From: an uncultured Acidimicrobiales bacterium
Lineage (GTDB): Bacteria; Actinomycetota; Acidimicrobiia; Acidimicrobiales; Aldehydirespiratoraceae
Length of the DNA: 64,000 nt
Assembly (NCBI GenBank): GCA_958296055.1
Contig: CATQHS010000001.1
Coordinates: forward strand, 2,762,277 to 2,826,276
Direction: 5' to 3'
The notes below the pieces were generated by a model. That model was given only the letters and a program-made list of their open reading frames with translations. It ran no database searches and had not been told where the DNA came from. Positions 2,514 through 63,503 of the stretch are shown in pieces. The position numbers and the translations under genes are program-made. Every line of letters begins with the position of its first letter. The first letter of the stretch is position 1.

Positions 2514-3833
2514 GTGTCCAATTTCGTTGACGAGTGCAACCTCAACGTCCAAGCTGGCGACGGGGGAGCGGGGTGCGTGGCCTTCCGGCGCGAGGCCCAC
2601 GTGGCCCGGGGCGGGCCGGCCGGCGGCGACGGGGGCCGGGGCGGCGATGTCTGGCTGGTGGCCGACCGCGGCGTGGCTTCCCTGCTGTCGTTCCGGGACC
2701 ACCCCCATCGCCGGGCCGGCAACGGCCGCCACGGCCGGGGGAACAAGCGTCACGGGGCTCGGGGTGCCGACTTGGAGGTGCCGGTTCCGGTGGGGACCGT
2801 GGTGCTCGATCACGACACCGGCGAGCCGCTGGCCGACTTGTCCGGCTCCGGCGACCGCTGGCTGGCCGCCCGGGCGGGGGAGGGGGGCCGGGGCAACTCC
2901 CGGTTCTTGACCAACCGCCGCCGGGCCCCCGCCTTCGCCGAGCAGGGCGAGCGGGGGGAGTCCCGATGGCTGCGGCTGGAGCTGAAGCTGCTGGCCGACG
3001 CAGCCATCGTCGGGCTGCCCAACGTGGGCAAGTCCACCTTCATCAGCCGAGTGTCGGCGGCCAAGCCCAAGATCGCCGACTACCCGTTCACCACTTTGGA
3101 GCCGAATCTGGGCGTGGTCCGCACCGGCGACACCGAGATGGTCTTGGCCGACGTCCCCGGCCTGGTCTCGGGGGCCAGCGAGGGCAAAGGCCTCGGCCAC
3201 CGGTTCCTCCGCCACATCGAGCGGGCCCGGGTGCTGCTGGTGATGTTGGACTTGGCCCCCGGCGCGGCCCCGCCCCCGGCCGATCAGCAGGCGGTGCTGC
3301 TGGCCGAACTGGAGCGCTATCGGCCCGATCTCCTGGACCGCCCCCGGTTGGTGGTGGGTAGCCGGGCCGATCTGGCCACCGGAGTCGGCCGCGAGGAATC
3401 GTCGGCGGCCGAGCCGAGCGCCGGCGGCCGCGGGGAATCGCGGGCGGCCGAGGCCAACGCCGGAAACGGCTTCGAGGGTCTGAGGATTTCGTCGGTGACG
3501 GGCCTGGGAGTGGCCGAGGTCACGGGCGAGCTGGCCCGGATGGTGGCCGCGGCCCGGGCGGCCGAGCCCGCCGCGGCCGGCACGGTCGTCCACCGGCCGG
3601 CGGCGCCCGGGGTCGGCGTCACCCGGTCCCACGACGGATCATGGGTGGTGCACGGCCGCGCTGCGGCCCGGGCCGTGGCCCTCAGCGACCTGACCGATCC
3701 CGAGGCGCTGGCCTACGCCCAGGGCCGCCTCGACCGGCTCGGGGTGGACAAGGCCCTGGCCAAGGCCGGTGCCGTCTCGGGCGACGTCGTCCACATCGGC
3801 GACCTTGCCTTCACCTACGAGGAGGGACGGTGA
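2514..3833 (+). CDS. obgE: GTPase Obg/CgtA with C-terminal OCT domain
   Basis: FVDECNLNVQAGDGGAGCVAFRREAHVARGGPAGGDGGRGGDVW; G1 GLPNVGKSTF; GTG start. Confidence 0.96.
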   Translation: MSNFVDECNLNVQAGDGGAGCVAFRREAHVARGGPAGGDGGRGGDVWLVADRGVASLLSFRDHPHRRAGNGRHGRGNKRHGARGADLEVPVPVGTVVLDHDTGEPLADLSGSGDRWLAARAGEGGRGNSRFLTNRRRAPAFAEQGERGESRWLRLELKLLADAAIVGLPNVGKSTFISRVSAAKPKIADYPFTTLEPNLGVVRTGDTEMVLADVPGLVSGASEGKGLGHRFLRHIERARVLLVMLDLAPGAAPPPADQQAVLLAELERYRPDLLDRPRLVVGSRADLATGVGREESSAAEPSAGGRGESRAAEANAGNGFEGLRISSVTGLGVAEVTGELARMVAAARAAEPAAAGTVVHRPAAPGVGVTRSHDGSWVVHGRAAARAVALSDLTDPEALAYAQGRLDRLGVDKALAKAGAVSGDVVHIGDLAFTYEEGR

Positions 3834-3922
3834 CGGGATCGAGGAGAGCCGCCGACCGCGGCGAGGAGGGACGGTGACGGGATCGAGGAGGGCCGCCGAC
3901 TGCGGCGAGGAGGGACGGTGAC
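3818..3922 (+). repeat. 44-bp tandem repeat (2.4 copies) spanning the obgE stop / proB start junction; each copy carries SD+GTGA
   Basis: cgaggagggacggtgacgggatcgaggag(a/g)gccgccgac(c/t)gcgg at 3818, 3862, and partial at 3906; GTG codons at 3830, 3874, 3918. Confidence 0.93.
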
Positions 3923-5063
3923 CGACTCTGCCCGCATCGTGGTGGTCAAGATCGGCACTTCGTCGATCACCGACGAAGCCGGCGCCATCGACCCGGCGGT
4001 TGTGGCCAAGCTGTGCGGCCAAGTGGCCGAGCTGAGAGCCGAGGGCTGTCAGGTGGTGGTGGTGACCAGCGGAGCCATCGCCGCGGGCCTGCCCGAGCTG
4101 GGGTTCACCGGCCGGCGGCCGACCGACATGGCCACTCTCCAGGCGGTGTCCACCGTCGGCCAGATCGCGCTCATGGGCGTCTACAGCGAAGCCTTGGCCC
4201 GCCACGGCCTGGTGGCTGGCCAGGTGCTTCTGGTCCCCCTCGACTTCGTTCTCCGCTCCCAGTACGTCCACGCCATGAACACCCTGGGCAAGCTGTTGGA
4301 GTTGGGCGTGGTCCCGGTGGTCAACGAGAACGACGCCATCGCCGACGACGAGATCCGCTGGGGCGACAACGACCGGATCGCGGCTCTGGTGGCCAACCTG
4401 GTCCACGCCGACCTGCTGGTGCTGCTCACCGACACCGAGGGGGTGTTGACCGCCGATCCCCGCATTGACGCCGGGGCGTCGCTCATATCCGAGATCGCCG
4501 AGATCGATCACCTGCTCGAAGAGCGGGCCGGCGGGGCGGGCACGGCCCGGGGCAGCGGGGGCATGGCTTCCAAGCTCACCGCAGCCAGGGTCGCCTCTTG
4601 GTCGGGGGTGACGGCCGTGATCGCCAACGCCCGCCGAGACGGCGTGCTGGTCGATGCCGCCGCCGGAGTCGAAGGAGTGGGCACCGTGGTGCGGGCCCGG
4701 CCGAGCAAGCTGCCGGCCCGCAAGCTGTGGATTGGATTCGCCGTGGGATCCCAGGGCGAGGTGGTGGTCGACTCTGGGGCTCGGGCCGCCCTGGAGCGGG
4801 GCAAGTCGCTGCTGGCCATCGGGGTGACCGATGTCATAGGCGCTTTCTCGGCCGGAGCGCCGGTGGGAGTGCGAGAAGCGGGGGGGCCGGTGTTCGCCAA
4901 GGGCTTGGTCCGCCCCGGAAGCGACGAACTGCGGGGGTTGGCCGGCCGCCGCAGCGGCGAGATGGGCCCGGACCGGACCCACATCGTGATCCACGCCGAC
5001 GATTTGGCGGTGATGCCGGCCAAAGGGGCAGACCGGCCGGGTGTCCCGGGTCGCCGCATTTAG
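3918..5063 (+). CDS. proB: Glutamate 5-kinase (with PUA domain)
   Basis: RIVVVKIGTSSIT...VVVVTSGAIAAG...MASKLTAARVASWSGV; C-terminal PUA-like region. Confidence 0.95.
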   Translation: MTDSARIVVVKIGTSSITDEAGAIDPAVVAKLCGQVAELRAEGCQVVVVTSGAIAAGLPELGFTGRRPTDMATLQAVSTVGQIALMGVYSEALARHGLVAGQVLLVPLDFVLRSQYVHAMNTLGKLLELGVVPVVNENDAIADDEIRWGDNDRIAALVANLVHADLLVLLTDTEGVLTADPRIDAGASLISEIAEIDHLLEERAGGAGTARGSGGMASKLTAARVASWSGVTAVIANARRDGVLVDAAAGVEGVGTVVRARPSKLPARKLWIGFAVGSQGEVVVDSGARAALERGKSLLAIGVTDVIGAFSAGAPVGVREAGGPVFAKGLVRPGSDELRGLAGRRSGEMGPDRTHIVIHADDLAVMPAKGADRPGVPGRRI

Positions 5064-6745
5064 CCGGATACTGGTTCGCGGGGCGGGACTGTTCGATATA
5101 CCGCACCGTCTGGCATCTCGACTACCAGCTCCAAGTATTCGTATTGTGTCGCTATCTCCCTAAGGTTGCAACTTCCTCGATAGATTTCATCAAGAGTCTT
5201 ATCGTTATTTAAATAAAAATAAATTATGTATTCCCCACCTTCAACTTCCGCCTTTTTTTGGAACCATTGAGAGCAATTTGCTCCGAAATCATGGGGTAGA
5301 TAGCGCACTGGTGGTGGTATATCTGTCAAATGATATAGAACAGGTGATCTATTAGTACGGACTATTCTATCAGGAGGATTCACATTTAGGTAGTCAATTA
5401 TCGGAGAATTTGGCGTGTATCCGAAAATGGGTGGGTGATGCTTGGATTCTAGAACCATGATTGTTGTACTTACGTTCCATTGCATGGCGCGGTACGAATA
5501 AACTACACAGCTAGAAATTATGAAGAAAATGAGAGCAAATCTAAGCAATCTTCCATCCTTACCTCTGCTCAAATATTTGGCAAATAGAACACTTCCTAGA
5601 ACACTTCCTATAATTATGATTGGTATATATACAGGTGAAAGATATCGGTAGTCAATGGGTTGGTTAGCTACCCTCGATACAGTTATGATGAGGGAGATAA
5701 TGTACACGAGTACGAACACAATGAAGGGAAGAATATGGAACCTGTTTATGCTAGATGGCCTTCTTGGAGTCGGATTTGCTTGAAGTTTGTTATAAGTAAT
5801 TATCGATACCACAAGTAGGATAGTTATCAATACTATAAGTAGGAATAGTCCAGTCATCGTCCACAGGTAATATCGTACCCGAGCGGGTGGTGGTACACTT
5901 CCATAAAGTGGAGAACAGAACCATTCACACAACGCATCAACCGTATCTCGTAGGGAATTATATAGAGACTGCGGTGATTCCCAAGATCTATCTCCTGTAT
6001 ACGACCCTCTGGACGAGCGATTGTAAATCAAGAGACCTGCAAGGGGTAGTGAGGATATTATTCCATGGATAGTTGCATGTCGCAATCTCTTGATAAAGGG
6101 AACATTTTGATTGATTAGTAATAGGATAACGGCGGTTATGATTACTGTGAAACCTATATACCGGGTTATAGGAGCGAGAGCGGTAAAGAACACTGAGAGT
6201 GCAAAAGTTCTTCTGGTTTTTTCTTGCATGAACGCGCCAATCTGCATTAGGGCAAGGAGCGTAAACAAGATAAAAGAGATTTCACTTAAAGCGTGTGATG
6301 CAAGATGATTGAGGGCATAGGAAGTTGTTACTATCACTGTTGATCCGACCACCAATAATCTGGATTTTATGTAGCGACTCAAGCAGTGTCCGGTCAGTAA
6401 AATGATTAACCCTAAGAATAGGATATTCAAAATCCGGCTGGCCGAATAAATGTCGATGCCTAATGAGTGAATAAACGCTAAAAGCAATGGATAAAGAGGT
6501 GGATATAATACCAAATTTGTCTGGCTGTAATCACGAATCCCTTTCCCTTCGGCTATACTTTCAGCAGTAGATAAATAAGCCATAGCATCCCCTCCAACGA
6601 TCAGACCATAGTTGGAGGAACGGATTAGAAGATGCGCGGCACCAAGGAAGGCCACAAAGGCAATAACCAATGATAAAGATCTGTCGGTTCGTGAATTGAA
6701 CTCGCCGGATATGACCGCACGGCCTGCATTCATCACGAGTCCCAA
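5060..6745 (-). CDS. Multi-pass membrane protein, GT39/ArnT-like glycosyltransferase family (copy 1)
   Basis: 561 aa, many hydrophobic segments, N-terminal LIRSSNYGLIVGGDAMAYLSTAESIAEGKGIRDY...NLVLYPPLYPLLLAF; near-duplicate of 7952-9607; AT-rich composition. Confidence 0.75.
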   Translation of the reverse strand: MGLVMNAGRAVISGEFNSRTDRSLSLVIAFVAFLGAAHLLIRSSNYGLIVGGDAMAYLSTAESIAEGKGIRDYSQTNLVLYPPLYPLLLAFIHSLGIDIYSASRILNILFLGLIILLTGHCLSRYIKSRLLVVGSTVIVTTSYALNHLASHALSEISFILFTLLALMQIGAFMQEKTRRTFALSVFFTALAPITRYIGFTVIITAVILLLINQNVPFIKRLRHATIHGIISSLPLAGLLIYNRSSRGSYTGDRSWESPQSLYNSLRDTVDALCEWFCSPLYGSVPPPARVRYYLWTMTGLFLLIVLITILLVVSIITYNKLQANPTPRRPSSINRFHILPFIVFVLVYIISLIITVSRVANQPIDYRYLSPVYIPIIIIGSVLGSVLFAKYLSRGKDGRLLRFALIFFIISSCVVYSYRAMQWNVSTTIMVLESKHHPPIFGYTPNSPIIDYLNVNPPDRIVRTNRSPVLYHLTDIPPPVRYLPHDFGANCSQWFQKKAEVEGGEYIIYFYLNNDKTLDEIYRGSCNLREIATQYEYLELVVEMPDGAVYRTVPPREPVSG

Positions 6746-6951
6746 CCACGTCCCATCGGCACCGAGGGCAGTGTCCCGCTAAGTGGTGGGGTTTGGGGTT
6801 GGTCCTCGGTTATGCACCGACTGTGAGTTCTGCGGTTGCGATGGTATCGGACGGGTGCCTGAGTTGGCATGGAGTCCTCGGAGAGGTGGCGCCGGTCGGT
6901 TGCTTGCCATTGGTCGTGTGCGTTGGCGAGTATAGCTCCGACGAGGCGCAC
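6733..6951 (-). pseudogene. C-terminal remnant of an IS256/Mutator-family transposase
   Basis: MRLVGAILANAHDQWQATDRRHLSEDSM resembles the IS256 transposase C-terminus. Confidence 0.6.
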
Positions 6952-6974
6952 GGCGTTGTCTTGGGGTTGAGGGT

Positions 6975-7310
6975 TTGGGCGGGGTCCCCCGGTGGGGTGA
7001 GCCCCCCGAGTGGGACCGCTGGATCGCCTGGGGCGAAGCGGGCCTGTTGGACCGGTCCAGCCGGCCCCAGAGCTGTCCCTGGCGCACGCCCGACGCGAAG
7101 CGGTCAGAGGTCATTGAGCTGCGGCTGCGCCGCCGCTGGGGCGCGGACCGCATCGCGCATGAGACCGGCCTGGCCGCCTCCACCGTGCAGAACATTTTCA
7201 ACCGGGCCGCCTTGATGCCGGCGACCGGGCCCGACAGCCCCGCCCGCCGGTGCGGCGCTACAACCTCCCCGAATACCACACTTAGGTGTTCTGGGCATAG
7301 AGGTTGGTAG
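6975..7310 (+). pseudogene. N-terminal remnant of an IS481-like transposase (HTH region)
   Basis: GEAGLLDRSSRPQSCPWRTPDAKRSEVIELRLRRRWGADRIAHETGLAASTVQNIFNRA. Confidence 0.65.
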
Positions 7311-7324
7311 CAGCGTGATGGGGT

Positions 7325-7376
7325 GAGCCTCCTGTGCGAGTGTGGTGGTGTTACAACCCACGAGCACAGGAGGCTC
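7325..7376. repeat. Perfect 13-bp inverted repeat GAGCCTCCTGTGC...GCACAGGAGGCTC just upstream of the IS481-like transposase start
   Basis: Arms 7325-7337 and 7364-7376, loop 26 nt; tgttacaaccca inside resembles an IS481 end. Confidence 0.8.
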
Positions 7377-7377
7377 G

Positions 7378-7954
7378 ATGTCGCACGCTAATGCATGTTT
7401 GACTCCCGCGGGGCGGCGGCTGCTGCTGGTCCAGCGGGTGGCTGCGGGGGAGCCCCAGGCGGAGGTGGCCCGCCAGATGAAGCTGTCGCGGGGCACGGTC
7501 GCGAAGTGGTGGCGGCGCTGGCAGGAGTGCGGCGATTGCGGGCTGGCGGACCGCAGCTCGCGGCCGCGCCGATCTCCTCGGCGCACCGACGCCCGCACCG
7601 AGGAGCGGATCTGCCGGCTGCGGCGCAGGACCGCCCGACCGGGCGGGTGATCCGCCACTATGAGAGATCGGTGCCGGGGGAGCTGGTGCACCTCGACATC
7701 AAGAAAGTGGCGAAGATCCCGCCCGGGGGCGGCTGGAGGGTACACGGCCGCCAAAGCCCCCAGGCGCCGCGCCCGAGGCTCGGGGTACACCTATCTGCAC
7801 GTCGCCGTCGACGACTACTCCCGGGTCGCCTCCGAAACCGACCGCCGCATCCGCCTCAACGCTGGATCCACGACTACAACTGCCACCGACACCACACCGC
7901 AGTCGGCGGCCCGCCCGCATCACGCGCTAACAACCTCACGCGAACTGACATCTA
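7378..7954 (+). pseudogene. Internally deleted and frameshifted IS481-family transposase
   Basis: MSHANACLTPAGRRLLLVQRVAAGEPQAEVARQMKLSRGTVAKWWRRW...GLADRSSRP; then RVIRHYERSVPGELVHLDIKKV, SGYTYLHVAVDDYSRVA and RWIHDYNCHRHHTAVGGPPASRANNLT in different frames. Confidence 0.8.
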
Positions 7955-9607: not shown

Positions 9608-9676
9608 AAGTCCCAGTCACGCCCCATCGGCATCGAGCCTACGTCGTCGCGACCGTCTCGGCTAACGTTCGGCTTC

Positions 9677-10768: not shown

Positions 10769-10769
10769 C

Positions 10770-15187: not shown

Positions 15188-15206
15188 TGAGCCCAATGCT
15201 ACCCGG

Positions 15207-18494: not shown

Positions 18495-18497
18495 CGG

Positions 18498-31117: not shown

Positions 31118-31933
31118 TCAGGCCCCTTGAGCGTCGGGCCCGGGGGGTCTGGCCCCAAAGTCGCCGGCCCCGAAGTCGAAGGCGGCGATCTCGGCCATCT
31201 GCTCGCCCAGCAGCCCCACCGCCGCCTCGAAGAGCCGCTCGCCCTCCGCGGCGCTGGCCCCGGTGGGGTCGCCGATGTGGCCGTGGGGCCCGAAGTCGTC
31301 GGACAGCCACCCGAAGGAGACCGTCCCCCCGAACCGGGCGTGGCGGTTGGCGGCCAGGCCGCTGGGCACGGCCCGCACCGCCCGGTCCAGGCGGACCAGG
31401 TGGGGGCGCAGGTGCATGAACACCGACGTCTCCTCGTGTCCGCCGTGGATGCCCATGCCCTCCTCGGCTTCGGGCGAGGCGCCGCCGTGGTCGGGGGGCA
31501 CGAACGGGTGGACCAGAAAGGTCATCAGGCCGTGCCGGAGCCGGATGTCCCGGCAGGCCACGTTGAGCAGGGCCGAGTTGCCGCCGTGGCCGTTGAGGAA
31601 CACCAGCCGCCGGGCCCGGGTGGTGGCCACCGAGCGGGCGATGTCGTCGAGCACGGCCAGCAGGGTGGGCGCCGACAGCCACAGCGTCCCCGGCGACCAG
31701 GCGTGCTCGTTGGACTTCGACACCGACAGGGTGGGCAGCAGCCACAGGTCGCAGGCGTCGCCGTGGTCGGCGACCAGCCGGGCCGCGGCCTCGTGGGCGA
31801 TGACATGGTCCACCGACAGGGGCAGGTGGGGGCCGTGCTGTTCCACCGCGCCGATGGGCTGGACGATCACCGCCGATTCGGTGATCCGCTCGCCCACCTC
31901 GGGCCCGCTGAGATCCTCCAGTCGCCTGCTCAT
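31118..31933 (-). CDS. Creatininase family protein
   Basis: VIVQPIGAVEQHGPHLPLSVDHVIAHEAA...RRLVFLNGHGGNSALLNVACRD. Confidence 0.9.
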   Translation of the reverse strand: MSRRLEDLSGPEVGERITESAVIVQPIGAVEQHGPHLPLSVDHVIAHEAAARLVADHGDACDLWLLPTLSVSKSNEHAWSPGTLWLSAPTLLAVLDDIARSVATTRARRLVFLNGHGGNSALLNVACRDIRLRHGLMTFLVHPFVPPDHGGASPEAEEGMGIHGGHEETSVFMHLRPHLVRLDRAVRAVPSGLAANRHARFGGTVSFGWLSDDFGPHGHIGDPTGASAAEGERLFEAAVGLLGEQMAEIAAFDFGAGDFGARPPGPDAQGA

Positions 31934-32060
31934 AGCCGGATCGAGCGCCCTAGAACGGGCTCAAAGAGGTGCCTGCTCATAGCCGGATCGAGCGCCCTAG
32001 AACGGGCTCAGAGAGGTGCCTGCTCACGGCCGGATCGAGCGCCCTAGAACGGGCTCAGGC
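31924..32060 (-). repeat. 47-bp tandem repeat (3 copies) spanning the DinB-like gene 3' end and creatininase start
   Basis: gcctgctcatagccggatcgagcgccctagaacgggctcaaagaggt at 31924, 31971, 32018. Confidence 0.95.
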
Positions 32061-32825: not shown

Positions 32826-34097
32826 TCAGTTGGCGCTGGCTCGCAGGGAGTCGACGGGCTCGAACAGGGAGGCCCGCAGCGCCGGGTAGAGGCCGGCCAG
32901 CAGCCCCACCGCCGCCCCCAGCAGGGGAGCGGCCACCGGGATGGCCGGGTTGAGCACCGGCGTCCAGGTGCGGGCGGCCGACACCGCCACCACGGTCAGC
33001 ACCCCCAGCGAGGTGCCCACCATCCCACCGAACAGCCCCACCCCGGTCGACTCCAGCAGGAACTGGTAGGCGATGTGGCGCCGCCCCGCCCCCAGTGCCC
33101 TCCTGAGCCCGATCTCGCTCACCCGCTCCAGCACCGAGACCAGCGTCACGTTGGCGATGCCGATGCCGCCCACCAGCAGCGACACGCCCCCCAGGATCAA
33201 GAACAGGGCGTTGACGTTCTCTTGGACCTCGGCCCGCAGGTCCTCGGCTTCGGGAGGGGCCTGCACCCGCACCGTGGACGGGTCGTCGGGGGCCACCGCG
33301 ATCGGCCCCTGGGCCGCGATCAGCGATGCCGCCCCCACCTCGGTGCGGATCTGGACGGTGGAGGGCGACTTCAGCTTGTAGATCTCGCGGGCCGTCCCCT
33401 CGGGCACGATGATGGCGCTGAGCAGCTCGGGCTGGCGCTCCACCTGGGCCAGGATGCCCACCACCACGAAGCTCACGTCCCCCACGAACACCACCGGCTG
33501 CTGGTCCACCCTGGTGATGTTGAGCCGCTGGGCGGCCGCCGATCCCAGCACCGCCACCCGGTCGGCTCGCTCAGAGTGCCCGTGGTCGTACCACCGACCG
33601 GTGGTCAGCTTGCCCCGCGACGCCGGGTAGATCCCCGGGGAGGCGGCGATCATCGGGATCTGGAACTCGGTCTGGCCCAGCGGGTCGATGATGGGAACCG
33701 AGCGGACCAGGGCGTTGCCCAAACCCACGTCGGCCATCGACCCGGCCGCCACCACCCCGTTGAGGCGGGTCAGCCGCTGCTCGGAGTCCCACGGCAGCGC
33801 GATCCGGGTGTTGGCCCCGGAGAACCCCTGATCGGTGGTGAGCACCACCGAGGTGGCCGACAGCTCGTCGAAGGTGGAGACGATCTGGTTCCCGGCCGTG
33901 TTCGCCACCCCCAGGGTGGCCACCAAGGCGGCGATGCCCAGCACCGCCCCCAGGGCGGTGAGCAGTGAGCGCCCCGGACGGGCGAACAGCCCGGCCAGGG
34001 ACTCCGTCACCAAGTCGAGAACCCGGAACCGAGAGCGGGGGATGCGGCTCATGGCCGCGGATCTCTTGCCCCGCGCCCGGCGGGCCCGGCGCTTCAT
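32826..34097 (-). CDS. MacB-like ABC transporter permease (FtsX domain)
   Basis: SLLTALGAVLGIAALVATLGVANTAGNQIVSTFDELSATSV...GGIGIANVTLVSVLERVSEIGLRRALGAGRRHIAYQFLLES. Confidence 0.92.
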   Translation of the reverse strand: MKRRARRARGKRSAAMSRIPRSRFRVLDLVTESLAGLFARPGRSLLTALGAVLGIAALVATLGVANTAGNQIVSTFDELSATSVVLTTDQGFSGANTRIALPWDSEQRLTRLNGVVAAGSMADVGLGNALVRSVPIIDPLGQTEFQIPMIAASPGIYPASRGKLTTGRWYDHGHSERADRVAVLGSAAAQRLNITRVDQQPVVFVGDVSFVVVGILAQVERQPELLSAIIVPEGTAREIYKLKSPSTVQIRTEVGAASLIAAQGPIAVAPDDPSTVRVQAPPEAEDLRAEVQENVNALFLILGGVSLLVGGIGIANVTLVSVLERVSEIGLRRALGAGRRHIAYQFLLESTGVGLFGGMVGTSLGVLTVVAVSAARTWTPVLNPAIPVAAPLLGAAVGLLAGLYPALRASLFEPVDSLRASAN

Positions 34098-34129
34098 GTC
34101 CGGCGCCTCATGGCCGCGTGTCCCCTCAC
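34094..34129 (-). other. Mini-ORF VRGHAAMRRRT* linking the ATPase stop (GTGA) to the permease start (ATGA)
   Basis: GTG 34129 overlaps the ATPase TGA; TGA 34094-34096 overlaps permease ATG 34097; ATGAGGCGCCGGAC/ATGAAGCGCCGGG repeat, period 14. Confidence 0.6.
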
Positions 34130-34812
34130 GCCCGCGTGTCCTGGGTCACGCGCCCGTCGTGCATGGCGATGGTCCGCTCGGCCCGGCTGCTCACCATCTG
34201 GTCGTGGGTCACCACCACGATGGTCAGCCCGTCGGAGCGCAGCTCCTCGAAGAGTTCCAGGATGGACCGGCTGGTGGTGCTGTCCAGGCTGCCGGTGGGC
34301 TCGTCGCACAACAGGATCGGGGGCCGGGTGACTATGGCCCGGGCGATGGCCACCCGCTGGCGCTCCCCCCCCGAGAGCCGGGAGGGCAGGAAGCCGGCCC
34401 GGTCGGACAGGCCCACCCGCTCCAGCGCGCCGGCGGCCCGGGCCTTGCGGTCGGACCGGGGGACGCTCCCGTACAGCATCGACAGGACCACGTTCTCCAG
34501 CACGGTGCGATGGGTGAGGAGGTGAAAGGCCTGGAACACGAAGCCGATGCGGTGGGCCCGCAGGCCGGTTCGCTCCCCCTCGGAGAGCCGGCCCACGTCG
34601 CGGCCCTCGAACCGGTAGGTGCCCGACGTGTGCCTGTCCAGCAGGGCGGTGATGTTGAGAAGGGTCGACTTGCCGCTCCCCGACGGCCCCATTATCGACA
34701 GGTAGTCCCCGCGGTCGATGGCCAGATCGGCCTCCCGCAGGGCGTTCACCTCCACCTCCCCGGAGCGGAAGGTGCGCCCCACCCCCTCCAGCCGGATCAG
34801 GGGCTCGCTCAC
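34126..34812 (-). CDS. MacB/LolD-like ABC transporter ATP-binding protein
   Basis: IMGPSGSGKSTLLNITALLDRHTSGTYRFEGRDV; LSGGERQRVAIARAIVTRPPILLCDEPTGSLDS. Confidence 0.95.
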   Translation of the reverse strand: MSEPLIRLEGVGRTFRSGEVEVNALREADLAIDRGDYLSIMGPSGSGKSTLLNITALLDRHTSGTYRFEGRDVGRLSEGERTGLRAHRIGFVFQAFHLLTHRTVLENVVLSMLYGSVPRSDRKARAAGALERVGLSDRAGFLPSRLSGGERQRVAIARAIVTRPPILLCDEPTGSLDSTTSRSILELFEELRSDGLTIVVVTHDQMVSSRAERTIAMHDGRVTQDTRA

Positions 34813-34875: not shown

Positions 34876-36741
34876 TCACTCACCCGACGCCACCCCCACC
34901 ACCACTAGGTCTCCGGCGGAGATCTCCCCGTCCAGCGGGGTGACCTCCACCACCCCCTGGGCGGCCAGACCGGGCTCCACCTCCACGAACCGGGCCGTGC
35001 CGTCGGGCCGGGCGATCTCTATCCGGGTGGCGCCGTCGGCGGTGGCCGACAGGGCCGCGGCCGGCACCGCCCACACCTCGCCCTCGGTTCCCCCCACCGG
35101 GATGACGACCCGGACGTTGGACCCGATCAGCTCGTCGGGGATCTCCTCGTCGGCGACGATCTCCATGTAGTGGCGGTCGCTGGACACGCCCCGGGTTCCG
35201 GCCCGGTCCTCCAGGAGGCGGATCGTGCCCGGTATCGGATCGGTCAGGGCCGGGTCCTCGATCATGGCCTCTCCGCCCTGCTTGACCAAGCTGATGTCGC
35301 GAACCGGCACCGACCCCCGCACGGCCAGGTCGGACCCGGTGACGGTCATGAAGCCGCCGCTCACCAGCGATCCCTGCTCGGCGGTTAGGGCGTCCACCCT
35401 CACCGGCATCCGGCGCAGGAAGATGATCTCGCCGGCCGGCAGCCAGGTTCCGGTTTCAGCCTCCAAGTCGGCCAGCGCCTTGGCCGCGTCGGCCAGCTCG
35501 GTCTCGGCGTCTTGCACCTGGCGCTCCTTGTCGGCGATGTCGGGCGGCGCCAGCAGCCTGGCCAGGGCCTCTTGGGCGTCGAGCAGCCCGTTGCGGGCGG
35601 TTCGCCGGGTCTTCTCCGAAGGGTTCATCAGCTCGTCCAGGGCCTCTTGGGCGTTCAGCAGCCCGTTGTGGGCCTGCCGCAATTCGGTTGCCGCCGCCGT
35701 CGGCCGCTGATCCAGGGCCTCTTGCGCGTCGGCGATGGCCTTCTCAGCCCCGTTCAGCTCGATCCGGGCACCGTCGACGGCTAGGCGCAGAGCGTTCAGA
35801 TCCGCCGGGGTGGGAATGGCGCCGGTAACCGGATGAACCCCTGTCTGGGCGCTCCTCCAGTTCTGCTCGGCTTGGGCGTAGGCCTGGGCGGCCCGCTCTC
35901 GGGCTCGCTGGGCGGTCGTCACCGCCTCCTCGGCGGCGGCGTCTTCGTCGGCGATCTTGGTCCGGGTCGCCTGCAGGCTCTCGGTGGCCGCGGTCACCGC
36001 ATCGCGGGCCCGGCGAATGTCGCCGACGGGCGGGTCGAGCAGTTCGTCCAGGGACTGTTGGGCGTCGGTCACCGCCGCCCGAGCCCCGCGAACCGCGGCT
36101 TGGCCGGGGTTTCTGGCCTCCCGCAGGGCTTTGCGGGCTGCGGTCAGGGCGTCGGTGGCGGTCCTGATCCGGGTCTGGGCCGTCCGCAGCGCCGTCTTCT
36201 CCTGTTCGCTGATGCCGTTGGCCTGGTAGCCGTTGTCCTGGTACCAGGCCCTCACCGCCTCGCCGGTGTCGTCGTCCCATTTCTGATCCGGCGCCCCGGC
36301 TAAGAACCCCAGCCGGGCCAAGGCCTGCTCGACTTGGAGGACGTCGGGGCCTTGGGTGCCGGGGCGCATGTCCCGGAACACGGGGATGTCGCCGACCAGC
36401 AGGAACACCGGCCGCCCGGCGATCTCGATGGCCGCTGAGCCCTCCTGTAGATCCTCGCCTCTTTTGGGCGCGGCCGTTACCACCAGCACGTCCGGCCTGC
36501 CTCCCAGGGCGCCGCCCAACGACAAGGTGGCGGGGTCGTCGTAGCCGACGTCGGCCCGGGTTATCACGTTGGCCGACAGCTCTTTGCGCTCTACCTCCAC
36601 GGTGATGAGGGAGGGATCCGGGGGATCGGCCTCAGCCGCGATCTGGGCGGGCGAGCGGATGCCCCGCCCGAACCACCATCCCACCCCGGCCGACACCCCG
36701 ACCAGCAGGACCACCGCCGCCACCGCCAGGCCGCGTTTCAT
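34876..36741 (-). CDS. Efflux periplasmic-adaptor-like protein (HlyD/MacA type with peptidoglycan-binding-like segment and long coiled coil)
   Basis: N-terminal TM, GPDVLQVEQALARLGFLAGAPDQKWDDDTGEAVRAWYQDNGYQANG, coiled coil, adjacent to macB-like genes. Confidence 0.8.
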   Translation of the reverse strand: MKRGLAVAAVVLLVGVSAGVGWWFGRGIRSPAQIAAEADPPDPSLITVEVERKELSANVITRADVGYDDPATLSLGGALGGRPDVLVVTAAPKRGEDLQEGSAAIEIAGRPVFLLVGDIPVFRDMRPGTQGPDVLQVEQALARLGFLAGAPDQKWDDDTGEAVRAWYQDNGYQANGISEQEKTALRTAQTRIRTATDALTAARKALREARNPGQAAVRGARAAVTDAQQSLDELLDPPVGDIRRARDAVTAATESLQATRTKIADEDAAAEEAVTTAQRARERAAQAYAQAEQNWRSAQTGVHPVTGAIPTPADLNALRLAVDGARIELNGAEKAIADAQEALDQRPTAAATELRQAHNGLLNAQEALDELMNPSEKTRRTARNGLLDAQEALARLLAPPDIADKERQVQDAETELADAAKALADLEAETGTWLPAGEIIFLRRMPVRVDALTAEQGSLVSGGFMTVTGSDLAVRGSVPVRDISLVKQGGEAMIEDPALTDPIPGTIRLLEDRAGTRGVSSDRHYMEIVADEEIPDELIGSNVRVVIPVGGTEGEVWAVPAAALSATADGATRIEIARPDGTARFVEVEPGLAAQGVVEVTPLDGEISAGDLVVVGVASGE

Positions 36742-36858
36742 GCCCGGTCCTCGGGCGGCTCTGGCGGTGCGCGCCTCATCGCCGGTGTCCCAGCGGCTCT
36801 GGCGGTGCGCGCCTCATCGCCGGTGTCCCAGCGGCTCTGGGGGTGGTACGCGCCTCAT
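36738..36858 (-). repeat. ~38-bp tandem repeat (3 copies) upstream of the adaptor gene, encoding three chained mini-ORFs MRRVPPPEPLGHRR*, MRRAPPEPLGHRR*, MRRAPPEPPEDRA*
   Basis: ATG codons at 36858, 36817, 36779 then gene ATG at 36741; each TGA forms ATGA with the next start. Confidence 0.9.
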
Positions 36859-36874
36859 CGAAGTCTCTGCCCGG

Positions 36875-52959: not shown

Positions 52960-53712
52960 ATGCCCCTGATGGCCGCCTACCACCGACCGTCGACCATCGG
53001 TGCCGCCCTTGAGCTGTTGGCCGCGCCTGATCGGGTGGCCCTGGCCGGCGGCACCCTGCTCAACGCCGACCGGGCCCCCAGCCGACTGGAGGCCGTGGAT
53101 CTGCAGGCGCTGGGCCTGAACCGGATCGAAACCGTGGGCGGGGGGGTCCGGATCGGGGCCATGGCCACCCTCGGCGAGATGTCTGAGTCCCCGGCGGTGC
53201 CGGACCGGCTGCGGGCCGTGGCTCGGGCCGAGGCCCCTTCCACGCTGCGCACCCTGGCCACCGTGGGCGGGCTGGTGGCCCGCCGCCGGCCCGACAGCCT
53301 GCTGCTGGCCGCCCTGCTGGCCCACCGGGGCCGGGTCGCCTTGGCCGGTCCCGATGGCGAAAACGAAGAGGATCTGGCCCGAGTTCTGGGCGAAGGGGTG
53401 CCGGCCGGGACGCTGATCACCGCGGCAACCATCGACCCGACCGGCGCGGTGGCGGTGGCCGCCACCGGCCGGACCCCGGCGGACGTGCCCATCGTGGCCG
53501 CCTACGGGCGCCGGGCCGACGGCGCGGTGGCGGTGGCCCTCACCGGCGTGGCCCCGGTTCCGGTCTTGGCCGACGGGTCCGATCCGACCGCGGGGCTGGT
53601 GCCCGAAGGCGACTTCCGGGGCTCGGCCGAGTACCGACTGGAGCTGGCCCGGGTCCTCACCCGGCGAGTGACCGAAGAGCTGGCCGCCGCCGGCGACGAG
53701 GGGGAGCGGTAA
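52960..53712 (+). CDS. Molybdopterin dehydrogenase FAD-binding subunit (CoxM/XdhB-like)
   Basis: AAYHRPSTIGAALELLAAPDRVALAGGTLLNADR...VRIGAMATLGEMSES...LRTLATVGGLVA. Confidence 0.85.
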   Translation: MPLMAAYHRPSTIGAALELLAAPDRVALAGGTLLNADRAPSRLEAVDLQALGLNRIETVGGGVRIGAMATLGEMSESPAVPDRLRAVARAEAPSTLRTLATVGGLVARRRPDSLLLAALLAHRGRVALAGPDGENEEDLARVLGEGVPAGTLITAATIDPTGAVAVAATGRTPADVPIVAAYGRRADGAVAVALTGVAPVPVLADGSDPTAGLVPEGDFRGSAEYRLELARVLTRRVTEELAAAGDEGER

Positions 53713-53784
53713 TGGAGACCGAGTCCGCCGACGGGGAGGAGCGGTGATGGAGACCGAGTCCGCCGACGAGGGGGAGCGGTGATG
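53702..53784 (+). repeat. 35-bp tandem repeat (3 copies) across the FAD-subunit stop / Mo-subunit start; mini-ORFs METESADGEER* and METESADEGER*
   Basis: ATG at 53712, 53747 and gene start 53782; stops TAA 53710, TGA 53745, TGA 53780 overlap each next ATG (TAATG/TGATG). Confidence 0.95.
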
Positions 53785-56706
53785 GAGATCGCCTTTGAGC
53801 TCAACGGCGCGCCGGCCGTAGTCGAGGCTGCGCCCCACGAGTCGCTGCGGGCGGTGCTGCGGCGCCTGGGCATGTTCTCGGTTCACTACGGGTCCGACAG
53901 CGGCGAGACCGGCGCGGCGGCTGTGCTCTTCGACGGCAAGCTGGCCAGCGCCGACGTCATCAGCGCGGCCCAGGCCGACGGCCACGCCGTCACCACCGTC
54001 GAGGCGCTCAACGTCTCGCCCGAACTGGACCCGATCCAGGCCGCTTTCGCGGCCGTCGGGGCCTTCCAGTCGGGATATTCGGCCGGGGCCATGATCCTGG
54101 GGGCCAAGGCGCTGCTGGAGGCCGACCCAGACCCGTCCGAGGCCGCCATCCGCGACATGCTCTCGGGCATCCTCGACCGGGAGACCGCCTACGCCAAGCC
54201 GGTCGAGGCGGTGAAGCGGGCCGCGGCCGTGCTCCGAGGCGACCGGCCCGAGCCCTTCGGCCCGCTGGTCCTGGAGCCGATGACCGACGGCGTCCGCCCG
54301 ACGGCCGTCTCGCCCGACGACGAGCCGCCGGCCGGGCCGGCCTCGGTGCCCCGGCTGGTCCCGTCCCGGGAGGTTCCCGACATGGCCGTGGTCGGCCGGC
54401 CCGAGGTGAAGGTGGACGCCGTCCGCCTGGCCAAGGGCAACCCGGCCTTCACCGACGACATCGAACCCCGGGGGATGTTGTACGCCAAGGTGCTGCGCAG
54501 CCCCCACGCCCACGCCCGCATCACCCGCATCGACGACTCGAAGGCCCGGGGGATGCCCGGGGTTAGGGCCGTCCTGCACCACGGCAACACCCCCAGGGTG
54601 AAGTACGCCTCGGGGGGCCAGAGTTGGCCCAACCCCCACCCCTACGACCAGGTGAGCTTCGACGACAAGGTCCGCCACGTCGGGGACCGGGTGGCCGCGG
54701 TGGCCGCCGACACCGTCGAGATCGCCGCCGAGGCCGTCCGCCTCATCGAGGTGGACTACGAGGTGCTCCCGGCCGTCTTCGACGAGCGCGAGGCCATGGC
54801 CCCCGGCGCGCCGGTGATCCACGACGAGGACGACACCCACCACATCTGCGACCCCGAGCGCAACCTCGTCCACCACATCACCGCTCGGCGGGGCGACCTA
54901 GAAAGCGCTTTCGCCACCGCCCCCCATGCCTTCGAGCAGACCTTCAGGGTCCACCAGGTCCAGCAGTGCCCGATCGAGCCCCACATCTCGGTGGCCTGGC
55001 TCGACTCCGACGAGCGGATGGTGGTGCGGACCGCCACCCAGGTGCCCTTCCACACCCGGCGGATGCTGGCCCCCCTCATCGGCATGGACATCAAGGACAT
55101 ACGGGTGATAAAGCCCCGCATCGGCGGCGGTTTCGGGGCCAAGCAGGAGATGCTCATAGAGGACATCGTCGCCCACCTGGCCATCGCCACCCGCCGACCG
55201 GTCCGGCTTGAGCTCGACCGGGCCGAGGAGTTCTACGCCAGCCGCACCCGCCACCCCCAGACCATCACCTTCCGCACCGCGGTTGACCATGACGGCAAGC
55301 TGTTGGCCCAGGACATGTACGTGCTGGGCAACACCGGCCCCTACGGGACCCACGGCTTCACCGTCCAGATCGTCTCGGGGCTGCGGGGCCTGTCCTCCTA
55401 CAACGCCTCGGCCAAGCGGTTCACCTGCGACGTGGTCTACACCAACATCCCGGTTCCGGGCGCCTACCGGGGCTACGGCGGCCCCCAGGGCGAGTTCGCC
55501 CTCGAGGCCCACATGGAGGACGTCGCTCGGGCCCTCGGCGCCGACGTCATCGACTTCAAGCGGCTCAACTGGGTGAAGGTCGGCGACGAGATGGACATCG
55601 CCCCCCATCTGGGCGAGCGGGCCCCGGCCGAGGGCGAACTCGACGAGTACCCCAAGATCATGTCGTCGGGCATCGAGGAGTGCATGGCCCAGGGGCTGCG
55701 CGAGAGCGGCTGGCACCGCCGGAACGACCCGGCCTGGAAGCGGCCCGCCGACCGGCCCCACATCCGCCGAGGGATCGGCTTCGCCTTCGCCATGCACGGC
55801 ACCGCCATCCCGTTCCTGGACATGGGGGGGTGCTCGATCAAGCTCAACGACGACGGCTCCTTCAACATGCTCATCGGCGCCACCGATCTGGGCACCGGCG
55901 CCGACACCGTCATCGGGCAGATCGCGGCCGAGGTGCTGGGGGTGCCGCTGGACGACATCAAGGTGTACTCCAGCGACACCGACGTGACCCCCTTCGACAC
56001 CGGGGCCTATGCCTCGTCCACCACCTACATCTCCGGCACGGCCGCGCTGCGGGCGGCCGAGGCGGTCCGCAAGCGGCTCAAGGAGCGGGCGGCCATGCTG
56101 CTGGAGATAGACGAACCCTGCACCATCGAGCTGCGGAACCGGCGGGCCCACGCCCCCGACGGCCGCTCGGTGAGCTTGGAAGAGATCGCCTTGGACTCGC
56201 TGCACATGCAGGAGCACGAGCAGATCATGGGCACGGCCTCGCACGTCTCGCCCGACTGCCCGCCGCCGTTCGGAGCCCAGTTGGCCGAGGTCGAGGTGGA
56301 CGTCGAGACCGGCCAGGTCACGGTCACCAAGCTGGTGATGGCCGTCGACTGCGGCGTGGCCATCAACCCCATCACCGCCAGCGGCCAGGTCGAGGGCGGC
56401 ATGACCCAGGCCCTGGGCTACGCCCACTGCGAGGAGATGGTGCTCGACGACGAGGGGCGGATGGTCAACCCGTCCTTCGGCCCCTACAAGATCTACCGGG
56501 CCGACGAGATGCCCGAGACGGTCGTGTACCTGGTGCAGACCATGGAGGACAGCGGCCCGTTCGGGGCCAAGGCCGTGGCCGAGATCCCCAAGGACGGGGT
56601 GGCCCCCGCCGTCCGCAACGCCATCCTCGACGCCACCGGGGTGGCCATCAACGACCTGCCCTTCACCCCCGAACGGGTGTGGAGGGCCCTTCGGGCCCAC
56701 GCCTGA
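53782..56706 (+). CDS. Xanthine dehydrogenase-family molybdopterin-binding subunit with fused N-terminal ferredoxin-like region lacking all Fe-S cysteines
   Basis: C-terminal RIGGGFGAKQEMLIED..., GQVEGGMTQALGYA, FGAKAVAEIPKDGVAPAVRNAI; N-terminal FQSGYSAGAMILGAKALLEADPDPSEAAIRDMLSGILDRETAY aligns with the canonical QCGYCTPGMI...LSGNLCRCTGY. Confidence 0.93.
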   Translation: MEIAFELNGAPAVVEAAPHESLRAVLRRLGMFSVHYGSDSGETGAAAVLFDGKLASADVISAAQADGHAVTTVEALNVSPELDPIQAAFAAVGAFQSGYSAGAMILGAKALLEADPDPSEAAIRDMLSGILDRETAYAKPVEAVKRAAAVLRGDRPEPFGPLVLEPMTDGVRPTAVSPDDEPPAGPASVPRLVPSREVPDMAVVGRPEVKVDAVRLAKGNPAFTDDIEPRGMLYAKVLRSPHAHARITRIDDSKARGMPGVRAVLHHGNTPRVKYASGGQSWPNPHPYDQVSFDDKVRHVGDRVAAVAADTVEIAAEAVRLIEVDYEVLPAVFDEREAMAPGAPVIHDEDDTHHICDPERNLVHHITARRGDLESAFATAPHAFEQTFRVHQVQQCPIEPHISVAWLDSDERMVVRTATQVPFHTRRMLAPLIGMDIKDIRVIKPRIGGGFGAKQEMLIEDIVAHLAIATRRPVRLELDRAEEFYASRTRHPQTITFRTAVDHDGKLLAQDMYVLGNTGPYGTHGFTVQIVSGLRGLSSYNASAKRFTCDVVYTNIPVPGAYRGYGGPQGEFALEAHMEDVARALGADVIDFKRLNWVKVGDEMDIAPHLGERAPAEGELDEYPKIMSSGIEECMAQGLRESGWHRRNDPAWKRPADRPHIRRGIGFAFAMHGTAIPFLDMGGCSIKLNDDGSFNMLIGATDLGTGADTVIGQIAAEVLGVPLDDIKVYSSDTDVTPFDTGAYASSTTYISGTAALRAAEAVRKRLKERAAMLLEIDEPCTIELRNRRAHAPDGRSVSLEEIALDSLHMQEHEQIMGTASHVSPDCPPPFGAQLAEVEVDVETGQVTVTKLVMAVDCGVAINPITASGQVEGGMTQALGYAHCEEMVLDDEGRMVNPSFGPYKIYRADEMPETVVYLVQTMEDSGPFGAKAVAEIPKDGVAPAVRNAILDATGVAINDLPFTPERVWRALRAHA

Positions 56707-56709
56707 GCC

Positions 56710-58835: not shown

Positions 58836-58910
58836 ACGGAGCCCGGGGACCGTTGGGGATCGGGATCCGAAGGCGGATGATCGACCATCGCCTTCTCTGA
58901 ACCCCTCTGC

Positions 58911-59690: not shown

Positions 59691-59755
59691 CTGGTTTCGC
59701 TGCACTGGTTTCGCTGTTGCCGTGTTCCCTCGTCTGACTGAGTAGATTTCCGGTC

Positions 59756-60733: not shown

Positions 60734-60928
60734 CCGGAGGCTCGGCCCCGATTCGGGGTTGATCTGGCCCCACCCCCGCTCTAGGGTTGACCCGAACTGT
60801 TCGGGCCCGCTGCGGGCACCCGGAACTCCGGCGATGGTTGAGCCGGGGCTCCACCGCCGTCTTCCCCTCTCATCGTCTTCCCCCTTTTCGACTTCCCCCT
60901 TTCGATTCAACGTGAAGGGAAGCTGACG

Positions 60929-61582
60929 GTGATCATCTGGTGTTGGTCGGTAAAAGGCGGGGTTGGAACATCGGTGGTGGCGGCGGCCATCGCCTTGCGG
61001 TTGGCCCACGACGGGCGCGACACCACTCTGGTCGATCTGGAGGGCGACCAGCCTGAGCTGCTGGGCCTAGTCAAGGGGGCGGCGCCGTCTGAGCCCGGGA
61101 TCGGCGACTGGATCGCGGCCGGCGAGGGAGTGCCCGCCGACGCCATCGGCCGACTGCTCGAAGAGGTGACCCGGGGGCTGAGGCTGTTGCGGGCCGGGTC
61201 GGTGTCGCCGGACGGGGCCGACCCGGCCCGGCTGATGCTGGCCTTCGACATGCTGGCCCGGACCGGTCCGGTGGTGGTGGACGCCGGTCTGGACCCGGGC
61301 CGGGTCCGGGCCGGGCTCGGTGAGCAGCACCGATCGGTGTGCGTGCTGCGGTCTTGCTTCTTGGCCGTGAGCCGGGCCCAGCGGGAGGCCGACTCCATCG
61401 ACCACGTGGTCTTGGTCACCGAGCCGGGCCGGTCTCTGCGCTCCAGCGACGTCGCCGCCGCGGTCGGCGCCACCCGGGTGGACCGCATCGCCTGGGACCC
61501 CCGGGTGGCCCGGACCATTGACGCTGGCACCATCGTCGGGGTCCTGCCCATGCCGCTGCGGCGTTTCGAGCTGCCGGTATGA
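60929..61582 (+). CDS. CpaE/TadZ-like MinD/ParA-type ATPase of a Tad pilus locus
   Basis: IIWCWSVKGGVGTSVVAAAIALRLAHDGRDTTLVDLEGDQPELLGL deviant Walker A; upstream of tadA. Confidence 0.8.
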   Translation: MIIWCWSVKGGVGTSVVAAAIALRLAHDGRDTTLVDLEGDQPELLGLVKGAAPSEPGIGDWIAAGEGVPADAIGRLLEEVTRGLRLLRAGSVSPDGADPARLMLAFDMLARTGPVVVDAGLDPGRVRAGLGEQHRSVCVLRSCFLAVSRAQREADSIDHVVLVTEPGRSLRSSDVAAAVGATRVDRIAWDPRVARTIDAGTIVGVLPMPLRRFELPV

Positions 61583-62739
61583 GAGCGCCCGCCGGGCTGA
61601 TCGACGCGGTACACCGCCGGGTGCTCGACACCGGCGGCCGGATGCCCCCCAATCCGGCGGAGGTGGCCGGAATCGTCCGAGTTCTAGATCCTCTGGCCCG
61701 GCCCGAGGCCGTCGACGACGCGGTGGCCCGGGTGGTGGCTCGGGTGGAGGGGCTGGGCCCGATAGAGCCTCTGCTGGCCGACCCGTCGGTGAGCGAGGTG
61801 ATGATCAACGGCCCGGGGCCGGTCTGGGTCGAGCGGAGCGGGGTGCTGGCCCGCAGCGGTGTCAGCATGGACCGGACCGCGGTCGACCTGCTGATCGAGC
61901 GAATCGTGGGGCCGCTGGGCCGGCGGGTCGACCAGCGCGCCCCCTGCGTCGACGGACGGCTCGGCGACGGCTCCCGGGTTCACGTGGCGGTGCCCCCGGT
62001 GGCGGTGGACGGCCCCTACGTGACCATTCGTCGTTTTGTGGTGGCCGACGTGGCCTTGGAGATGTTCGCCGGCGAGGCGGTGGTGGCGCTGCTCGACGAG
62101 CTGATCTCCGCGGGGGCCAACGTGATGGTGACCGGGGGGACCGGCGCGGGCAAGACGACTCTGCTGAACGCCCTGGCCGGGCGCATCGACGGCGGTCGGC
62201 GGATCGTCACCATCGAGGACGCGGCCGAGCTCAGGCTCGACCATCCCCACGTCGTACGTCTCGAAGCCCGGCCCGAGTCCCGGGAGGGCGGGGGCGACGT
62301 GACCATCAGGGACTTGGTCCGCAACGCCCTGAGGATGCGTCCCGACCGGCTGGTGGTGGGGGAGGTGAGGGGAGCGGAGGCGCTTGACCTGCTCCATGCC
62401 CTCAACACCGGTCACGCCGGCTGCCTCTCCACCATCCACGCCAACGGGCCCGTCGACGGGCTGCGCCGGCTGACCACGCTGGCCGCGGCCGCAGCCGAAC
62501 GCCTTCCGGTGGACGCGGTCAAAGATCACGTGCGGGCGGCCATGGACGCGGTGGTGCACGTGGGGCGAGCCGCCGGTGGCGAGCGCCGGATTGTCGAGGT
62601 GGCCGAGGTGGTCTCCGGCGACCGGGTGCGCAAGCTGGCCGACGGGACCGCCGTGGTCGGCACCCTTTCCCGGCCCCGCCGGATCGCCGGCGACTTCGAT
62701 GACGGGACAGAGCCTCTGATGGCAGGGCAGGGCCGATGA
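61579..62739 (+). CDS. tadA: Tad/CpaF-type secretion ATPase
   Basis: VSEVMINGPGPVWVERSGVL...VMVTGGTGAGKTTLLNALAGRIDGGRRIVTIEDAAELRLDHPHVVRLEARP...LRMRPDRLVVGEVRGAEALDLLHALNTGHAGCLSTIHANGP. Confidence 0.95.
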   Translation: MRAPAGLIDAVHRRVLDTGGRMPPNPAEVAGIVRVLDPLARPEAVDDAVARVVARVEGLGPIEPLLADPSVSEVMINGPGPVWVERSGVLARSGVSMDRTAVDLLIERIVGPLGRRVDQRAPCVDGRLGDGSRVHVAVPPVAVDGPYVTIRRFVVADVALEMFAGEAVVALLDELISAGANVMVTGGTGAGKTTLLNALAGRIDGGRRIVTIEDAAELRLDHPHVVRLEARPESREGGGDVTIRDLVRNALRMRPDRLVVGEVRGAEALDLLHALNTGHAGCLSTIHANGPVDGLRRLTTLAAAAAERLPVDAVKDHVRAAMDAVVHVGRAAGGERRIVEVAEVVSGDRVRKLADGTAVVGTLSRPRRIAGDFDDGTEPLMAGQGR

Positions 62740-62757
62740 CGGGGCAGGGCCGATGAC
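62719..62757 (+). repeat. 17-bp tandem repeat across the tadA stop / tadB start; mini-ORF MTGQGR*
   Basis: atggcagggcagggccg-atgacggggcagggccg-atgacggcg; ATGs at 62719, 62736, 62753. Confidence 0.9.
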
Positions 62758-63445
62758 GGCGTTAATGGCGGCGGTGTTCGCCTTTGTGGCCGTGGCCTGG
62801 CCCCGTCCGCCGCCCCGGGGCCGTTCCCGCCCCCGGCCGCGGTCGGCCGTCGCCGTTGCCGCCGTCCGGGCCCGCCTGCGGAAGTGGTCCGGATCCGGCG
62901 ACCACGCCACCGTGGTGGCCGAGATGCTGGAGCTGACGGCCCGGGCCCTGCGGGCCGGGGCGTCTCTTCCGGTTGCCTTGGAGACGGTCTCAGCCGAACT
63001 CCCCGATGCCGGTCTGGCCCCGGTGACTCGCCGGATCGCCGGGGGACTGAGCGTGGCCGAGGCTCTGGACGGCTGGGCCGCCGGCGCGACCGGCAGCCGG
63101 GTGGCCGCCGCCCGCCGGATCGCGGTCGCCCTTCTCGTTCTCGGGCACGGGTCGGGTGCGGCCATGGCCGCCGGTCTCGATCGGGCCGCGGCGTCCATCC
63201 ATCAGCGTCGGGCCTGGCACGACGAGATCCGGGCCCTCACCGCCCAGACCCGGGCTTCGGGGCTGTTGGTGGCGCTGGCCCCGGCCGCCTTCGGCGCGGT
63301 CGTGGCTCTGGTCGACGGCGATGCTCTGCGAGTGCTGGTGGCCACTCCCCTGGGATGGCTTTCGCTGCTGGCCGGCCTGGGGTTGGAGGCTCTCGGGGTG
63401 TGGTGGATGACCCGGCTGGCCCGGGGGGTGTCGGCGTGGGCTTGA
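62753..63445 (+). CDS. tadB: TadB-like type II secretion F family protein
   Basis: VAEMLELTARALRAGASLPVALETVSAEL...AWHDEIRALTAQTRASGLLVALAPAAFGAVVAL. Confidence 0.85.
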   Translation: MTALMAAVFAFVAVAWPRPPPRGRSRPRPRSAVAVAAVRARLRKWSGSGDHATVVAEMLELTARALRAGASLPVALETVSAELPDAGLAPVTRRIAGGLSVAEALDGWAAGATGSRVAAARRIAVALLVLGHGSGAAMAAGLDRAAASIHQRRAWHDEIRALTAQTRASGLLVALAPAAFGAVVALVDGDALRVLVATPLGWLSLLAGLGLEALGVWWMTRLARGVSAWA

Positions 63446-63503
63446 GCATCGGGTCCGGGCTGGGGGTGTGGGCGTGGGCTTGAGCATCGGGTCCGGGCTG
63501 GCC
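63434..63503 (+). repeat. 38-bp tandem duplication across the tadB stop / tadC start; mini-ORF VGLSIGSGLGVWAWA*
   Basis: gtgggcttgagcatcgggtccgggctgg at 63436 and 63474. Confidence 0.93.

Follow-up and report, generated by a model that had tools for sequence, protein, structure and literature searches.

Why should the start codons copied by short tandem repeats at seven same-strand gene junctions lie at such regular distances from each other? The junctions in question are found in a window of 64,000 nucleotides (C1:2762277-2826276; G+C content 69.6%) from the 3.3-Mb, three-contig genome of a bacterium placed by ObgE similarity in the Acidimicrobiales (Actinomycetota). Copied starts there open small open reading frames (mini-ORFs) whose stops overlap the following start, so that neighbouring genes are joined by a chain of stops and starts, here termed a relay. 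The probable explanation is that tandem duplication is frequent in this lineage and that selection for translational coupling filters its products. A preliminary description of this DNA had likewise proposed selection on coupling, and this part of its interpretation stands, whereas a universal spacing rule of 2 mod 3 and a tuning of expression by copy number do not.

The arrays in the window were located with Tandem Repeats Finder (TRF), and every start and stop in the seven arrays was recomputed base by base. All seven are present as previously described; all start spacings agree, and the repeat copies are indeed mini-ORFs with stops overlapping the next start. At the obgE-proB junction, a 44-bp array of 2.4 copies (3818..3922, +) spans the boundary between obgE (2514..3833, +; Pfam GTP1_OBG, 2e-56) and proB (3918..5063, +; Pfam AA_kinase, 1e-43, and PUA). 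Its starts at 3830, 3874 and 3918 are spaced by 44 and 44 nt and delimit two mini-ORFs of 15 amino acids (aa) each, the first of which (3830..3877, +) overlaps the obgE stop with its start (GTGA) and the next start with its stop, while the second (3874..3921, +) overlaps the proB start with its stop (GTGA). A 35-bp array of 2.8 copies (53690..53788, +) lies between the genes for a FAD-binding subunit (52960-53712, +) and a Mo subunit (53779-56706, +), both recognised by Pfam. Here the ATG copies at 53712, 53747 and 53782 are spaced by 35 and 35 nt; the first mini-ORF (53712..53747, +) is entered through TAATG after the FAD-binding subunit, and the stop of the second (53744..53782, +) overlaps the Mo-subunit start. 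In the tad cluster, tadA (61579-62739, +; Pfam T2SSE) is followed by a mini-ORF of 6 aa (62736..62756, +) and by tadB (start 62753, +; Pfam T2SSF), the starts at 62736 and 62753 being 17 nt apart. A 38-bp array (63424..63501, +) then crosses the tadB-tadC junction, with starts at 63436 and 63474 (spacing 38) and a mini-ORF of 15 aa (63436..63483, +) that overlaps the tadC start at 63474 by 10 nt.

The remaining three arrays are found on the minus strand. Upstream of a creatininase gene (Pfam Creatininase, 3e-64), a 47-bp array of 2.9 copies (31924..32058, -) contains starts at 32027, 31980 and 31933, spaced by 47 and 47 nt. The two mini-ORFs of 16 aa each end on the next start (31977..32027, -; ATGA) and on the creatininase start at 31933 (31930..31980, -), and the first of them begins 16 nt past the upstream TAG without overlapping that stop. 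Between an ABC ATPase (34126-34812, -) and a MacB/FtsX permease (32826-34097, -), both assigned by Pfam, a mini-ORF of 11 aa (34094..34129, -) contains a nested in-frame start at 34111; the starts at 34129, 34111 and 34097 are separated by 18 and then by 14 nt, and the first of these steps, which is 0 mod 3, had been omitted from the preliminary description. Finally, a 38-bp array with a first step of 41 bp (36755..36860, -) precedes a gene with a PG_binding_1 match in Pfam (34876-36741, -). Its starts at 36858, 36817, 36779 and 36741 (spacing 41, 38 and 38) define mini-ORFs of 14 aa (36814..36858, -; starting 16 nt past the upstream TGA), 13 aa (36776..36817, -) and 13 aa (36738..36779, -), the last with a stop overlapping the downstream gene start. 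The downstream starts at 31933 (creatininase), 62753 (tadB) and 63474 (tadC) are the likely ones. Pfam supports ObgE, ProB, ABC ATPase, permease, creatininase, FAD/Mo and T2SSE/T2SSF, but the names DinB and lipoprotein given before found no Pfam match.

The period rule was then examined genome-wide in C1:1-2,760,000 and C1:2,762,277-2,866,276, that is in 2.86 of 3.32 Mb, where our own codon-model dynamic-programming caller predicted 2,314 genes with 1,667 co-directional junctions. The claim that the spacing is always 2 mod 3 holds for the start spacings of the seven window arrays, apart from the nested 18-nt step, but not for the genome: strong indel-free arrays at co-directional junctions have periods of 0, 1 and 2 mod 3 in 34, 11 and 35 cases, so that 0 mod 3 is equally common and 1 mod 3 is the scarce class. 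The corresponding counts are 88, 1 and 0 inside genes and 11, 6 and 6 in convergent and divergent gaps. As a rule, a fixed period was therefore discarded in favour of the frame relation between the duplicated start and the next stop.

This relation was followed by tracing translation from the copied start in 86 duplications that include the downstream start, L being the period of the duplication mod 3. Direct relays were found 52 times with L=2, where the stop lies at +1 or -2 (the -4 and -1 overlaps), nine times with L=1, where it lies at +5, +8 or -4 (an example is GTGGCTGA), and three times with L=0, where it lies at -3, -6 or -9. Those L=1 cases that at first appeared to stop early were mostly two-step relays. 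Arrays with a period of 1 or 0 mod 3 relay where the ancestral overlap requires that period, or in two steps. The nearly universal invariant is the unbroken stop-start chain, with 2 mod 3 as a special case.

When two-step chains were allowed and the extensions called at the first copy were added, the final tally of duplications carrying the downstream start was 72 relays, 15 N-terminal extensions (9 + 6), one out-of-frame case, two early stops and two lost starts. In-frame extension is thus about one fifth as frequent as relay. Random duplication of the genome's own overlapping junctions would give relay, extension and out-of-frame fractions of 0.36, 0.31 and 0.30. This null is too generous to selection, as slippage uses codon-phased microhomology: at -4 junctions 46-54% of the 4-6-mer microhomology pairs that link the last part of gene 1 to the first part of gene 2 are at 2 mod 3, and at non-duplicated -4 junctions the displacements fall into 0, 1 and 2 mod 3 at about 0.25, 0.22 and 0.50 (k=5-6). 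In relatives from the Acidimicrobiia, 62-68% of the pairs are at 2 mod 3 (k=5-6).

These figures lend some weight to a purely mutational explanation, in which slippage between codon-phased microhomologies favours the relay period without any selection on coupling, since about half of neutral duplications would then relay. The one third that had been taken as the neutral expectation was accordingly too low and overstated the case, yet a frame filter remains after microhomology has been taken into account. The microhomology-weighted null gives 0.51-0.59 relay, 0.22-0.25 extension and 0.18-0.22 out of frame, and at most one out-of-frame case in 90 has a probability of 8e-9 to 3e-7 under it. Mutational bias alone, which predicts 18-22% out of frame where one in 90 was found, also leaves unexplained the L=1 arrays that relay in two steps and the excess of the relay frame after repeat similarity has been lost, and we regard it as unlikely.

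That excess becomes apparent when relay chains are sought irrespective of tandem repeats. Chains of strict NTGA or TGATG steps leading from the stop of gene 1 to the start of gene 2 were found at 158 of 1,118 gapped junctions, compared with 55.6 after deletion and 37.0 after insertion of one base in the gap. A dinucleotide shuffle of the gap was dropped as a null (119.6 versus 154 observed) because it preserves both the NTGA ends and the gap length and is therefore uninformative; the one-base shifts were used instead. Among the 154 chains listed, 113 contain one mini-ORF and 41 contain two to five, and 114 lack a TRF array. The relay frame corresponds to a gap of 1 mod 3. For gaps of 8-200 nt with NTGA at both the upstream stop and the downstream start, the gap lengths are distributed over 0, 1 and 2 mod 3 as 38, 125 and 44, compared with a flat 68, 67 and 53 where NTGA is present at the downstream start only. 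With NTGA at both ends, the excess persists at junctions without detectable self-duplication (14/67/26, p = 6e-10). An excess of gaps of 2 mod 3 where NTGA is present at the stop of gene 1 only (48/52/89) was rejected as a sign of relays; these gaps are in frame with gene 2 and are read as starts called too far downstream. Within imperfect repeat copies, mismatches affect the TGA positions in 3 of 180 cases, compared with 10% in the flanks, which is modest evidence, as part of each TGA is constrained anyway as stop or start.

The same counts bear on the suspicion that the relays are artefacts of assembly or gene calling. The sequence possibly stems from a metagenome assembly, and the starts were predicted by our own caller. 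However, every base of the window arrays was checked, most relays lack any tandem array, the effect is confined to one gap frame with NTGA at both ends, and misplaced starts fall into the other class, that with NTGA at the first stop only and a gap of 2 mod 3. An artefact is therefore scarcely credible.

How the relays arose can be followed at obgE-proB, which was compared with about 50 relatives ranging from the same family outward, the same genus not being represented. In 25 of them, including nearly all members of the same family, the junction is a single-copy -4 overlap of the NTGA type, and an array comparable to that in the window was seen in none of the approximately 50 at this junction. 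Together with the scarcity of duplications in the relatives this indicates that the array in the window arose secondarily, through expansion of an overlapping junction. The best self-duplication of each gapped junction was accepted at a score of at least 14 (the maximum in shuffled sequence was 11), and this score was reached at 245 of 1,113 gapped junctions (22%) here, as against 6 of 177 (3.4%) in relatives from the Acidimicrobiia and 13 of 297 elsewhere in the Actinomycetota. Relay chains occur at 11 of 183 gapped junctions in Acidimicrobiia, compared with 2.4-3.6 under one-base shifts, and at 6 of 331 in other Actinomycetota, compared with 1.9-4.2, which is no clear excess. Loss of NucS mismatch repair as the cause of the repeat-richness, and Ku as a special feature, were considered and rejected, since this genome, like most relatives, has both genes.

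Among co-directional junctions, -4 overlaps make up 13.6% here and 21% in the Acidimicrobiia loci, although the sample of relatives is biased to one locus; the lower share fits some overlaps having been opened by duplication. In addition, many junction duplications have the form M-u-M, with a near-perfect core of 15-35 nt around the start and an unlike spacer, for which both diverged copies with homogenised cores and a different duplication mechanism were considered.

The duplications themselves are not directed to operon junctions. In fixed windows of 160 nt they were found at 2.0% of mid-gene positions, at 13-15% of convergent and divergent midpoints and at about 13% of co-directional junction starts, so that co-directional junctions show no enrichment over other intergenic DNA in such windows, and neither special targeting nor positive selection is needed there. 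This bears on the proposal that the arrays are tunable coupling elements whose copy number is selected to set the stoichiometry of the downstream protein. In its favour, arrays span 2 to 6 start copies, as with the five 35-nt steps at C1:1978809-1978982 (perfect arrays occur at this site and at C1:926541 and C1:1549076), and the downstream mRNA level in M. tuberculosis correlates with how long the repeat at rnc-fpg1 is (PMC2734929). However, the even density of duplications and the single mini-ORF in 113 of the 154 relays leave such tuning unsupported, and we consider it very unlikely.

The course of events that we favour, duplication followed by selection for coupling, would begin with local tandem duplications of units of about 14-80 bp, which are frequent in this lineage. 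A duplication over the overlapping stop and start of two co-transcribed genes would move the downstream start away from the upstream stop and would survive only where ribosomes finishing gene 1 still reach gene 2. Coupling works best near -4 to +3 nt, is generally weak beyond 30-40 nt and commonly uses spacings of -4, -1 and -8 (PMC12548453). Because coupling falls with distance, gene 2 would in most cases become uncoupled when 35-50 nt are inserted into a -4 junction without a mini-ORF to bridge them, and in the relays each stop and the next start do lie at -4, -1 or -8. Two outcomes would then be tolerated. Either the duplicated start shares the frame of gene 2, whose N-terminus it extends, or it opens a mini-ORF whose stop overlaps the next start and from which ribosomes would proceed by stepwise termination and reinitiation into gene 2; the latter would leave both proteins unaltered and is the commonest outcome. 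It would require a period of 2 mod 3 for -4 and -1 overlaps, of 1 mod 3 for -8 and -11 overlaps and of 0 mod 3 for an abutting stop and start. Later, copies would be gained, lost and altered in sequence, with the relay frame retained throughout.

The anatomy of the junctions, the frame statistics and the single-copy state in relatives are direct observations, from which it is inferred that the mini-ORFs are translated, that ribosomes reinitiate step by step and that selection acts as the filter. That coupling is preserved by selection agrees well with the single out-of-frame case in 90, the sensitivity of the chains to one-base shifts and the relay excess without repeat similarity. Several points weigh against this view: codon-phased microhomology across the -4 junction yields part of the relay excess without selection, the freedom of the relay frame from internal stops (0.82) is not clearly higher than that of the other frames (0.76 and 0.79), the gene starts are our caller's predictions and not curated annotation, and the coverage falls short of the full genome (2.86 of 3.32 Mb). 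A plausible but tentative extension is that ribosomes traverse several successive mini-ORFs, terminating and reinitiating up to five or six times while staying on the message, that more than 100 such relays have become fixed in this genome, and that selection on stop-start coupling is general at operon junctions, a weaker set of relays being present across the Acidimicrobiia.

If this were true, the genome would represent a natural saturation experiment on selection for stop-start coupling at operon junctions. A duplication-prone genome would have tried insertions of about 14-80 nt at many junctions, and the survivors would reveal the stop-start relations on which the cell depends. While studies of coupling usually rely on a small number of constructs, a genome-wide, frame-based gauge of the strength of selection would be available here, and multi-step reinitiation is a directly testable prediction. 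For annotation, translated-looking mini-ORFs in such gaps are probably conduits and not genes.

Other features of the window concern repeats of a different kind. A low-G+C (about 40%) gene for a membrane protein with a weak PMT glycosyltransferase match is present at 5060-6745 (-) and 7952-9607 (-), with 81% protein identity, and a third copy 80 kb away (C1:2682217-2684077) carries the 3' end of proB; it is probably an acquired gene that was duplicated together with its neighbour. Both window copies contain the 12-bp unit TAGAACACTTCC in tandem (5585-5610 and 8477-8500). At 7260-7834 lies a dispersed repeat (about 350 + 220 bp) that is represented by about ten or more genomic copies, which are 84-95% identical.

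Among known systems, plain translational coupling by overlapping stop and start (PMC12548453) uses the same geometries as the relay steps, namely NTGA at -4, -1 and -8, but here the genes are separated by one to five extra mini-ORFs, in a set of junctions that spans the genome. Bicistronic designs and upstream open reading frame (uORF) delivery (PMC12548453) similarly employ a short ORF that hands the ribosome to the next start; the relays differ in being natural, located between genes and produced by duplication. ETR-F/VNTR3239 of M. tuberculosis, located between rnc and fpg1 where other mycobacteria have a junction of a few bp, is a tandem array, and its length and the downstream mRNA level are correlated (PMC2734929); this resembles the change from a short junction in relatives to an array in one lineage seen here. 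It is, however, a single locus with composite units of 55/79 bp, and a start-stop relay is not described there (PMC2734929).

The earlier statement that no family of this kind had been described is contradicted by the mycobacterial MIRUs, which, as summarised in PMC12548453 (citing Supply 1997), are short repeats with an ORF that is coupled, at -4 spacing, to the gene that follows, occur in tandem copies and are thought to insert with minimal effect on expression. The relay mini-ORFs share this layout: their starts and stops overlap the flanking genes at -4, and the units lie between co-directional genes in the same orientation, which for our co-directional junctions is so by construction. MIRU units have lengths of 77 and 53 bp, likewise 2 mod 3. 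A mobile MIRU-like family that inserts at NTGA sites together with its own coupled mini-ORF would account for the -4 overlap at both ends, the orientation and the tandem copies. Nevertheless, cross-locus matches among the relay gaps numbered 8, compared with 6.5 in control gaps and 21 in reversed sequence (E 1e-3), so that cross-locus similarity does not exceed that of the controls and the units do not form a single homologous dispersed family. They resemble only their own junction, and as no sequence is common to the relay gaps, a dispersed family was rejected as highly improbable. One relay gap (C1:2224749-2224826) has matches of 84-88% at no fewer than three other sites in the genome, a hint of a dispersed element within a relay. 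Whereas the MIRUs constitute one dispersed and apparently mobile family, the relay units are locus-specific and derive from local duplication of the junction, which would provide a simple origin for MIRU-like mini-ORF arrays without a mobile element. The relay set thus works like the MIRUs, which are the closest known kind, without belonging to that family.

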